This document shows positions 44,281-48,033 of a stretch of DNA of 64,000 nt, piece after piece (the first letter of the stretch is position 1; each line of letters begins with the position of its first letter). The notes beneath the pieces are model-generated. The model was not told the origin of the DNA and did not search any database. It saw nothing but the letters and a program-made list of their open reading frames with translations. Source of the stretch: Sinorhizobium garamanticum (GTDB lineage Bacteria > Pseudomonadota > Alphaproteobacteria > Rhizobiales > Rhizobiaceae); NCBI RefSeq assembly GCF_029892065.1, contig NZ_CP120374.1:1928740-1992739 (forward strand), written 5' to 3'. The position numbers and the translations under genes are program-made.

Positions 44281-44379
44281 GACAGGGCCGCGCGTCCTTT
44301 GAGGCGCGCATAGGTCGCTGTAGCAGTTTGAGTTACTGCATGATTCCTCAAATCGATTCCGATTTGAGGAATCATGCAG
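44281..44379 (+). repeat. RIME-like palindromic repeat, copy D
   Basis: GGGCCGCGCGTCCTTTGAGGCGCGC then AGGTCGCTGTAGCAGTTTGA and the TTCCTCAAATCGATTCCGATTTGAGGAA palindrome with CATGCAG. It abuts the stop codon of the ROK gene (five bases away). Confidence 0.8.
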
Positions 44380-44383
44380 TAAC

Positions 44384-45463
44384 TCAATCAGCATCGCGTT
44401 CGCGCCTGTTGGTGAAGTGGGCGTTGCCCAGGCCCGTGCCAATCGTCAGAACTCCCCAGCCGGAGACGTCCTGCATGAACGGTACCTGCGAGAGGCCCTG
44501 GACGACCGCGTCGTTGTGCATGATCACGAAGGTCTCATCCTCGCCGATTTGCGGAATGGCCTCCCTGATAGCGGCGGGCAGATTGAAGTGCTCGCTTTCC
44601 CAGTTGCCACCTGGCAGGTTCTGACCGCCGCGCACAATCGATCCATCGGCGTCGATCAACCCAGGACAGGCCACACCAATCACGGGGGCGGGGGTGAGGT
44701 CTGCCTTGTCGGCCTTGGCGATCAGCCTTTCGATCATGGAGATGAGACGTTCAATTGCAGTGGTCCGACTGGGCTTATCGTCCGCATGTCGCCAGATATC
44801 TGACTTCCAGACCTTGGCCTTCGAGAGGTTCGCGTCTTCCTTCAGGCACGTCTCGACTATGCCCACACGAATATTGGTGCCGCCGATATCAATGGCAAGG
44901 ATCGCCTTGTGCCCCTTCAGCATCCAGGACGGGATAAGGTGCACGGCGCCGATGAGCCCCGCTTCATCCGGACGGTGGACGACCGGCGTGAGTTCGATCT
45001 TGATGCCCTTGGCCTTCAGCAGCACCATCGCATGGGCAATTGCAAGTTCGCCTACGACGCGCTCTCTAAAGCCGCCGCCCACAACGACGCGTTCGGTATT
45101 CTTCCAGCTCTTCTGACGCAGCAATTTGTCGAGAACAGCGGCGAGTTCGCCTGCGAAATCGTGAACCGCTCCCATGACCAGGGCGGCTGCCTCCTTGTCA
45201 TCACCAACGAGAAGGGCATCGACCTCCTTTTTCGACAGGTCGCCGGTCGGAGTTTTCCCGAGCGGATCGGTGCCGCCCTTGCGCACGCGCTTGCGCCAGG
45301 CTTCGAGCTTTTCCTGGAAGGCATATTTGTTGGCCTTGTCGCCCAGAAATCCGTCGGAGCTCCGCAATTCGATGTTGTAGTCATCGACCGTGACCGACGG
45401 CAGATCGTCGTCACCATGCGTGAGGAGGACGCCGTTTTGCTTCTCGTTCGCGGATCTGCCCAC
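44384..45463 (-). CDS. ROK-family sugar kinase-like protein with swapped domain order
   Basis: A 359-residue actin-fold kinase-like protein. Residues 80-175 look like the usual C-terminal ROK region (ALVMGAVHDFAGELAAVLDK; NTERVVVGGGFRE at 122-134; DEAGLIGAVHL). Only after this come the usual N-terminal elements: phosphate-binding AIDIGGTNIRVG at 190-201, VIGVACPGLIDADG, NLPGGNW, the catalytic-type HNDAV (Asp318) and GTGLGNA at 342-348. It ends soon after GTGLG. The normal order is DIGGT first and GGG last, so the chain appears circularly permuted. The zinc motif HxCxCGxxGC is absent. GTG start at 45463 has GGGGAGG upstream; ATG at 45625 is an alternative. Divergent from otsBA; glucokinase-like activity is plausible, unproven. 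Confidence 0.8.
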   Translation of the reverse strand: MGRSANEKQNGVLLTHGDDDLPSVTVDDYNIELRSSDGFLGDKANKYAFQEKLEAWRKRVRKGGTDPLGKTPTGDLSKKEVDALLVGDDKEAAALVMGAVHDFAGELAAVLDKLLRQKSWKNTERVVVGGGFRERVVGELAIAHAMVLLKAKGIKIELTPVVHRPDEAGLIGAVHLIPSWMLKGHKAILAIDIGGTNIRVGIVETCLKEDANLSKAKVWKSDIWRHADDKPSRTTAIERLISMIERLIAKADKADLTPAPVIGVACPGLIDADGSIVRGGQNLPGGNWESEHFNLPAAIREAIPQIGEDETFVIMHNDAVVQGLSQVPFMQDVSGWGVLTIGTGLGNAHFTNRRERDAD

Positions 45464-45716
45464 GCAACCTCCCCTATGACGCTTCACCCTGAACTGATCC
45501 GAGACCGGAGTGAGTGATAAACGTGAGCGGCGGGGGCGATGTTCCGACGTCGGGGCGTCAAGTCCCGAAAGAAGTCGATTGATGATGAACGCAGAGCCTG
45601 GATCACAGGCTCGCAGGCCGCACACCCAGATGCTACTCCCACCACTTTGGACAGCAGGTGTCCGCTTTATGCAAGCTCAGGGTTGCCGTTTGCGGGCTTT
45701 GACATCAATATGGGTC

Positions 45717-46578: not shown

Positions 46579-48033
46579 ATGGGCCGTCTCGTCATTGTTT
46601 CCAATCGCGTACCTGTTCCGGCCAAGGGTGGTATTGCGCCTGCCGGTGGGCTGGCGGTTGCGCTGAAAGTCGCCCTCGAAGAGCAAGGCGGCGTATGGAT
46701 GGGCTGGTCGGGGAAATCGAGCGGAGAGCATGAGCCGCGAGCGCTTGCACAACTGAAGCAGGGCAACATCACCTATGCCCTGACGGATCTGACCGACACC
46801 GATGTCGAGGAATATTACCACGGCTTTGCCAATCGGGTTCTTTGGCCGATCTGCCACTACCGGCTTGATCTCGCCGAGTACGGTCGCAAGGAAATGGCCG
46901 GGTATTTCCGCGTCAACCGCTTCTTCGCCCACCGGCTTGCCCCGCTTGTCAAACCCGACGATGTCATTTGGGTGCACGACTATCACTTAATCCCTCTCGC
47001 GGCAGAGCTGCGTCAAATGGGATTGAAGAACCGCATCGGTTTCTTCCTCCACATTCCCTGGCCGCCCGCTGACGTGCTCTTCACGATGCCCGTTCACGAG
47101 GAGATCATGCGTGGCCTGTCACACTACGACGTCGTCGGCTTTCAGACCGATCATGACCTCGAGAACTTCGCCGGCTGTCTCAGGCGGGAAGGCATCGGCG
47201 ATGAACTTGGCGCAGGGCGCTACAGCGCCTATGGTCGCATATTCAAGGGCGGCACTTATGCAATCGGCATTGAGACCGCGGCCTTTGCCGAATTCGCCAA
47301 AAAGGCATCGACCAACAAGACGGTCAAAAAAACGCGTGAGAGCATTGGAAACCGCAGCCTGATCATCGGTGTCGATCGCCTCGATTATTCCAAGGGAATC
47401 ACGCAGCGCATCGACGCGTTTGAGCGCTTCATCCTGGCCAATCCGGCCCAGCATGGGCATGTCACCTATTTACAAATCACGCCGAAGTCCCGCTCCGAAG
47501 TGCCGGAGTACGAAGCCATGCAGCGCATGGTTGCCGAACAGGCCGGCAGGGTGAACGGCGCGCTCGGCGCCGTCGATTGGGTGCCGATACGCTATATCAA
47601 TCGCTCGATAGGCCGACACATTCTTGCTGGGCTTTACCGGCTTGGCAAAGTTGGCCTCGTGACGCCGCTTCGAGATGGGATGAACCTCGTCGCAAAAGAA
47701 TACGTAGCCGCGCAGAATCCCGACGATCCCGGCGTGCTCCTGCTTTCACGTTTCGCCGGAGCTGCTCGCAACCTAAACGGCGCGCTGCTCGTCAACCCAT
47801 ACGACGTAGAGGGTACGGCGAATGCCATGGCGCGTGCACTGAGCATGCCGTTGGAAGAACGGAAGGCGCGCTGGAAGACGATGATGGATCACTTGCTGGA
47901 ACACGATGTTACGCGCTGGTGCCAGGATTTTCTCGATGATCTAACGGGCATGACGGGCTCAGCCTGGTTAGAGCCCTCAGATGGAAGGCAGGCTTCGTAT
48001 TCTGATAAAACTGAGATCAAAACGAGCGAATGA
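46579..48033 (+). CDS. otsA: Alpha,alpha-trehalose-phosphate synthase (UDP-forming)
   Basis: A 484-residue GT20 enzyme joining UDP-glucose and glucose 6-phosphate. Motifs: VSNRVPVPAKGGIAPAGGLA, WPICHYR, VIWVHDYHLIPLAAEL, FFLHIPWPP, IGVDRLDYSKGI and PLRDGMNLVAKEYVA. AAAGGAGGTCGGC precedes the ATG. The C-terminal 20 residues (SDGRQASYSDKTEIKTSE) are a polar extension. Convergent with the LacI gene at 48085. Confidence 0.95.
   Translation: MGRLVIVSNRVPVPAKGGIAPAGGLAVALKVALEEQGGVWMGWSGKSSGEHEPRALAQLKQGNITYALTDLTDTDVEEYYHGFANRVLWPICHYRLDLAEYGRKEMAGYFRVNRFFAHRLAPLVKPDDVIWVHDYHLIPLAAELRQMGLKNRIGFFLHIPWPPADVLFTMPVHEEIMRGLSHYDVVGFQTDHDLENFAGCLRREGIGDELGAGRYSAYGRIFKGGTYAIGIETAAFAEFAKKASTNKTVKKTRESIGNRSLIIGVDRLDYSKGITQRIDAFERFILANPAQHGHVTYLQITPKSRSEVPEYEAMQRMVAEQAGRVNGALGAVDWVPIRYINRSIGRHILAGLYRLGKVGLVTPLRDGMNLVAKEYVAAQNPDDPGVLLLSRFAGAARNLNGALLVNPYDVEGTANAMARALSMPLEERKARWKTMMDHLLEHDVTRWCQDFLDDLTGMTGSAWLEPSDGRQASYSDKTEIKTSE

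Follow-up and report, generated by a model that had tools for sequence, protein, structure and literature searches.

A ROK-family protein with swapped halves, almost certainly a natural circular permutation, beside trehalose synthesis genes in Sinorhizobium garamanticum

A reading frame of Sinorhizobium garamanticum carries the motifs of a ROK kinase in an order that reverses the two halves of the family, which raises the questions of whether this order is real, what became of the remainder of the ROK chain, and what such a protein might do. The window, that is, the whole stretch of 64,000 nucleotides analysed here, lies at the end of contig C2, which is 1.99 Mb long, in a genome of 6.8 Mb assembled in 3 contigs. 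The gene and the segments of its product are listed below.

44384..45463, minus strand: reading frame encoding the 359 amino acids of the permuted ROK protein, with a GTG start at 45463 and a TGA stop at 44384
45468..45475, minus strand: Shine-Dalgarno-like AGGGGAGG, 4 bases ahead of the GTG, read from the sequence
45245..45463, minus strand: residues 1-73, a conserved N-terminal segment without a detectable ROK counterpart (alignments; hhalign of residues 1-80)
44930..45244, minus strand: residues 74-178, corresponding to the C-terminal part of ROK proteins, with GGG at 129-131 and DEAGLIGA at 166-173 (hhalign Prob 95-96)
44903..44929, minus strand: residues 179-187, linker between the former C- and N-termini (alignment across the junction)
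44408..44902, minus strand: residues 188-352, corresponding to the N-terminal part of ROK proteins (PF00480 positions 2-141; hhalign Prob 97 for 188-346)

The motifs lie where the first-pass annotation had placed them: GGG at residues 129-131, DEAGLIGAVHL at 166-176, AIDIGGTNIRVG at 190-201, HNDAV at 316-320 and GTGLG at 342-346. Residues 188-352 hold, in order, DIGGTN (phosphate-1), the WRHADD stretch, CPGLID, NLPGGNW, HND and GTGLG (phosphate-2). The roles given to phosphate-1, phosphate-2 and HND, with its expected catalytic aspartate, are presumed from general knowledge of ROK proteins. Residues 1-73 follow the pattern HGA..LPSV...YN...DGFIGD.A...AF...WRKRV...DP.G. At the other end of the gene, a perfect 28-base inverted repeat with a 4-base loop (window 44328-44387) overlaps the stop codon. 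Its core, ATGATTCCTCAAATCG, occurs 78 times in the genome within one mismatch, compared with 0 occurrences of a control pattern. The inverted repeat is therefore a dispersed palindromic repeat, and it is possibly a terminator as well.

The Pfam ROK profile, PF00480, matches residues 189-352 only of the window protein, at profile positions 2-141 of 294 (28.9 bits versus a cut-off of 22.9), and it matches 48 of 53 members of the permuted family at E 0.01. Taken by themselves, the N-terminal 182 residues are not matched by PF00480 at any E up to 10; their relation to ROK proteins is visible by profile-profile comparison only. In that comparison, hhalign aligned a profile built from 98 permuted-family sequences with one built from 23 ordinary ROKs, the remainder of 25 chosen loci after one was not extracted (L125) and one was dropped for a wrong frame (L081). 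Residues 188-346 align with ROK positions 3-136 (Prob 97.0, score 81.3); a second alignment pairs residues 74-178 with positions 206-303 (Prob 95.3, score 64.7). The comparison with a doubled ROK, proposed at first as a dot plot, was run as a profile alignment. It yields one alignment that runs across the old C-to-N junction, from residues 74-346 to doubled positions 206-441, with Prob 99.0 and a score of 138.4. Scores for 30 column-shuffled doubled profiles reach a maximum of 25.8 (mean 17.6) and a reversed profile scores 17.2, while ordinary ROKs retain their ordinary order against the doubled profile.

Solved protein chains were searched with the family profile using HMMER. Query residues 190-208, 264-351 and 93-184 match chain positions 3-21, 58-140 and 203-289 of 5nck, and 4htl is matched in the same swapped order; in both chains each stretch is weak by itself. 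Within 5nck, 4htl and 2aa4, the C-terminal part is matched by weak stretches of residues 74-178. The top match, 2yhw, runs over an apparent expression tag ahead of the kinase start and is not counted as evidence for the linker.

The first-pass annotation's description of reversed halves and an apparent circular permutation is borne out, in that both parts match the ROK profile in swapped order and the shuffled and reversed controls are negative. As judged from these comparisons, the 359-residue reading frame almost certainly encodes a natural circular permutation of a ROK kinase. Natural circular permutation of a whole enzyme family is uncommon. The alignments show the new termini to lie after the phosphate-2 motif GTGLG, with the putative old ends joined by a linker of about 9 residues. 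The permutation may have originated in a tandem duplication that lost its outer halves, or by another route.

The alternative to a real permutation is an artefact, either a sequencing or frame error that joins two genes or a motif order that arose by chance. A protein search from the window protein returned at least 8000 candidates at E up to 0.001, of which the best 120 were examined; ordinary ROKs may be present among the more distant candidates. These 120 homologues have 343-403 residues and start in the same region. Among the matches listed, the closest named relative is from Ensifer sp. MPMI2T (94% identical), and a Sinorhizobium terangae protein, among the closest named, is 91% identical. 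A second search started from a homologue that is identical to a Pseudoxanthomonas daejeonensis record, and it gave at least 120 matches, the named ones mostly from Xanthomonadaceae genera. In an alignment of 53 sequences, the 22 homologues from this second search are 43-48% identical to the window protein and have the same motif order.

Motif order was also surveyed more widely, in 340 sequences of which 99 come from loci and 241 are listed proteins; this set includes the window protein three times and many near-duplicates. The full permuted pattern fits 333 of them. Four others (L046, P0012, P0149 and P0156) have all five motifs in permuted order with other spacing or letters. In each of the last three, one motif is not recognised by the loose pattern and the others stay in order; P0098 is the single sequence without a DIGG match, P0221 the single one without LIG and P0229 the single one without HND. 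Relative to eight Sinorhizobium and Ensifer orthologues, dN/dS is 0.01-0.22 for residues 1-73, 0.15-0.29 for residues 74-182 and 0.08-0.16 for residues 183-359, which indicates that all three segments are under purifying selection. A frame error joining two genes, a doubt raised by the first reading, is excluded by the order conserved in homologues and by dN/dS of 0.01-0.29. The same order in 340 sequences, as far as motifs are found, the purifying selection across three segments and the negative profile controls together leave an artefact of any kind with a vanishingly small probability.

The permuted protein is more than a rearranged ROK. The middle segment of the ROK chain, residues 137-205, has no detectable counterpart in the permuted family. 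Residues 1-80 give no match to ROK by local hhalign (Prob 0.1-0.2). Of the N-terminal 175 residues at issue in the first-pass annotation, the part from residue 74 (74-178 in the alignment, Prob 95-96) is indeed ROK-related, and residues 1-73 are not detectably so. Forced whole-chain alignments, and no others, paired GFIGDRASKxAF (residues 38-49) with CGCGxxGCxExY, the ROK zinc loop; this pairing was rejected, the local tests again giving Prob 0.1-0.2. The zinc motif CxCGxxGC, noted early on as missing, occurs in 0 of 340 sequences. Some accepted ROKs likewise lack this motif. An ExGH pattern is present in only two of the 340 (L019 and P0055), and the L019 match, within FAGELGHVL, is read as chance. 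It appears that the zinc- and sugar-binding middle segment has been replaced, or has diverged beyond recognition, and that the 73-residue N-terminal segment stands in its place. In this segment F39, G41, D42, F49, R57, D66 and G69 are strongly conserved. The WRHADDxPxR stretch (224-233) is a further feature of the family, in which W224, H226, P231 and R233 are conserved.

The region upstream of the gene offers a view of when it might be expressed. The relevant features are as follows.

45520..45545, minus strand: EcfG/RpoE2-type promoter sequence GGAAC-N17-CGTT, spanning 82 to 57 bases upstream of the start codon
45717..46514, plus strand: otsB, trehalose-phosphatase, divergent neighbour (PF02358, E 3e-32; start codon chosen by eye)
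46579..48033, plus strand: otsA, trehalose-6-phosphate synthase (PF00982, E 4.8e-124)

The promoter sequence at 45545-45520, GGAAC-N17-CGTT, is the sole strict match in the 64-kb window. Two papers give the R. etli EcfG1 motif as GGAAC-N16-CGTT (PMC3892343) and the Sphingomonas motif as GGAAC-N17-20-GTT (PMC6599016). Among alphaproteobacterial loci, which are the closest relatives and are partly redundant, 61 of 95 have a strict site (N16-17) within 110 bases upstream, in every case starting 54-94 bases before the start codon. Across the 17,998 windows of these loci, permuted-ROK upstream regions included, the background for the strict site is 52. A looser site (G[GC]AAC and [CG][GA]TT) is found in 82 of the 95 loci (background 122 of 17,998 windows), a count that is no independent test, as the looser form was chosen after Shinella and Bradyrhizobium sequences had been viewed. 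The strict site is absent from 34 of the 95, and three loci outside the class (L101-L103) have neither a strict nor a relaxed EcfG site. The S. meliloti RpoE2 regulon is described in PMC3616915, and in the main text of PMC3892343, on the R. etli EcfG regulon, ROK, glucokinase, otsB and trehalose are not named. Position and enrichment of the sites strongly suggest that in alphaproteobacteria the gene is transcribed from this putative promoter with EcfG/RpoE2, the sigma factor of the general stress response, and within Rhizobiaceae the gene is very probably under EcfG control.

The gene is, as first noted, divergent from trehalose synthesis genes, with otsB and then otsA as its divergent neighbours. 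The survey of homologues beside otsB that the first-pass annotation had proposed found a trehalose-phosphatase gene upstream and on the opposite strand in 40 of 88 loci with flanks. In 38 of the 40, the otsB open frame reaches to within 230 bases of the permuted-ROK start or overlaps it. The upstream neighbour is annotated as otsB or trehalose-phosphatase in Rhizobium indicum and Shinella plasmid records. In S. meliloti ml66 the neighbouring gene is annotated as an osmoprotectant NAGGN-system peptidase, homologues of which are found in 3 of the 88 loci. The flank lacks otsB in 48 of the 88, including all Bradyrhizobium loci and the three non-alphaproteobacterial ones, and it lacks both otsB and the NAGGN peptidase in 45. 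Annotated neighbours of a few loci without otsB include no trehalose gene and share no common theme. A first clustering of gene neighbours was cluttered by antisense frames and served for choosing the reading frames to annotate. At two loci (L022 and L139), the permuted ROK gene is followed downstream by replication and partition genes of the repABC type; the ParA-, RepB- and RepC-like frames of L022 fall into clusters of 16, 16 and 15 loci, and the R. indicum plasmid record has the same arrangement.

Genome-level searches covered the window's own phylum. Matches were found in 16 of 299 genomes of the phylum at E 1e-20, three of them outside the class, and at E 1e-40 in 26 of 297 genomes of the window's family and in 21 of 198 from the family of a Pseudoxanthomonas-like genome (G031), two of the latter being partial. 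Among 72,556 plasmid records 205 match, mostly from Rhizobium and Sinorhizobium, with single Roseateles and Methylobacterium records; a phage collection yielded no match. The permuted ROK gene is accessory and patchy, because it is found in a minority of genomes and plasmid records. Two genomes of a single genus, which belongs to the same order, each carry two copies in different places (G200, L107/L094; G217, L108/L093).

Alignments show that the motifs predicted to serve phosphate binding, adenosine binding and catalysis, the last through the aspartate of HND, are retained. The permuted chain would fold as the usual two-lobed ASKHA kinase with its termini moved. Its donor would be ATP, or possibly polyphosphate, and its acceptor a sugar, in the simplest case glucose, which would become glucose-6-phosphate. 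OtsA uses glucose-6-phosphate and UDP-glucose, and OtsB releases trehalose. Activity during stress and starvation might feed or recycle sugar for trehalose or osmolyte metabolism. Our best explanation, held with moderate confidence on the evidence of sequence, is thus a permuted ROK kinase with an EcfG-type stress promoter and a hexokinase-like role in trehalose or osmolyte metabolism. For ordinary hexokinase-type catalysis as such, the prospects seem slightly poorer than even, and sugar-kinase activity is not assured because the ROK ExGH and zinc motifs are missing.

The same losses, with ExGH not found in a ROK-like place, and the novelty of the N-terminal segment could instead mean that the protein is a pseudo-kinase, a stress-induced sensor or regulator of sugars or nucleotides without kinase activity. 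Many ROK proteins are regulators. This seems unlikely for a family in which D192, N317, D318 and G342-G346 (GTGLG) are invariant or more than 98% conserved in sets of 98 and 53 sequences, dN/dS is low in the segment that holds them, and the window protein has no DNA-binding domain in Pfam.

A kinase of changed specificity is another account, in which the N-terminal segment and WRHADDxPxR would form a different acceptor site, for a disaccharide such as trehalose or another osmolyte, or polyphosphate would be the donor. It overlaps with the hexokinase-like reading, where the donor is left open, and the probabilities that we attach to both rivals overlap in part with that of our best explanation. 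The family-specific conservation of F39, G41, D42, R57, D66, G69, W224, H226, P231 and R233, and an adjoining otsB or NAGGN-system gene, point towards it. So do a 21.3-bit HMMER match of 1woq, a polyphosphate/ATP-glucomannokinase, over the ROK-N part and the matches of 38 of 53 permuted members to NF045942 (polyphosphate glucokinase) at E 0.01. Against it, the window protein has no NF045942 match at E 0.01 or at E up to 1, its own genome has none at E 1e-15, and 0 of 200 genomes are above the NF045942 cut-off. NF045942-related sequences below the cut-off (L149 in G139, L150 in G091) occur in two alphaproteobacterial genomes alongside the permuted ROK. From ten loci two sequences were extracted and one, L149, was used; it reads as a 244-residue ROK of ordinary order, and this one sequence matches the ROK-N part only of the permuted family and not its N-terminal segment. 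Altogether, a changed acceptor or donor is improbable to much the same degree as a pseudo-kinase.

Searched by title and start of abstract in literature other than subscription papers, neither the permuted ROK protein nor this gene yielded a report; PMC1976428 and PMC7701253 use terms shared with it for unrelated things. Since Pfam matches one half only, the permuted family is concealed by the name 'ROK family protein'. It is a natural test of how far the two-lobed ASKHA fold tolerates moved termini and the loss of the zinc-bearing sugar site. If the promoter reading is true, the general stress response of alphaproteobacteria also gains an enzyme beside trehalose synthesis. The boldest statement, that this is an unrecognised permuted ROK family of Alpha- and Gammaproteobacteria whose zinc/sugar segment was exchanged for a new N-terminal module, acting in the rhizobial general stress response as a stress-induced kinase of new specificity, with an acceptor related to trehalose or an osmolyte or with polyphosphate as donor, is tentative and on balance doubtful.

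Several known kinases can be set beside the permuted protein. Hexokinase_1 (PF00349) and Glucokinase (PF02685), which are likewise ASKHA sugar kinases, match weakly round its phosphate-1 loop, and at E 0.01 they match 15 and 3 of the 53 permuted members, respectively; the window protein is below both Pfam cut-offs and is not assigned to either family. 1woq aligns with the ROK-N part from end to end (query 185-350, chain 9-156) and, like NF045942, shares GTGxGxA at the phosphate-2 motif, but these proteins have the ordinary order and are shorter (267 residues). The closest comparison is with the ROK family itself (PF00480: glucokinases, NanK, BglK and allose kinase), the profile of which matches both parts. 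Phosphate-1 DIGGT, the PG motif, the ND catalytic aspartate, GTGxG, GGG and D.AG..GA are common to both. Unlike the ROK family, the permuted protein has swapped halves, no ExGH in a ROK-like place and no CxCGxxGC, and it has a new 73-residue N-terminal segment and the WRHADD stretch.
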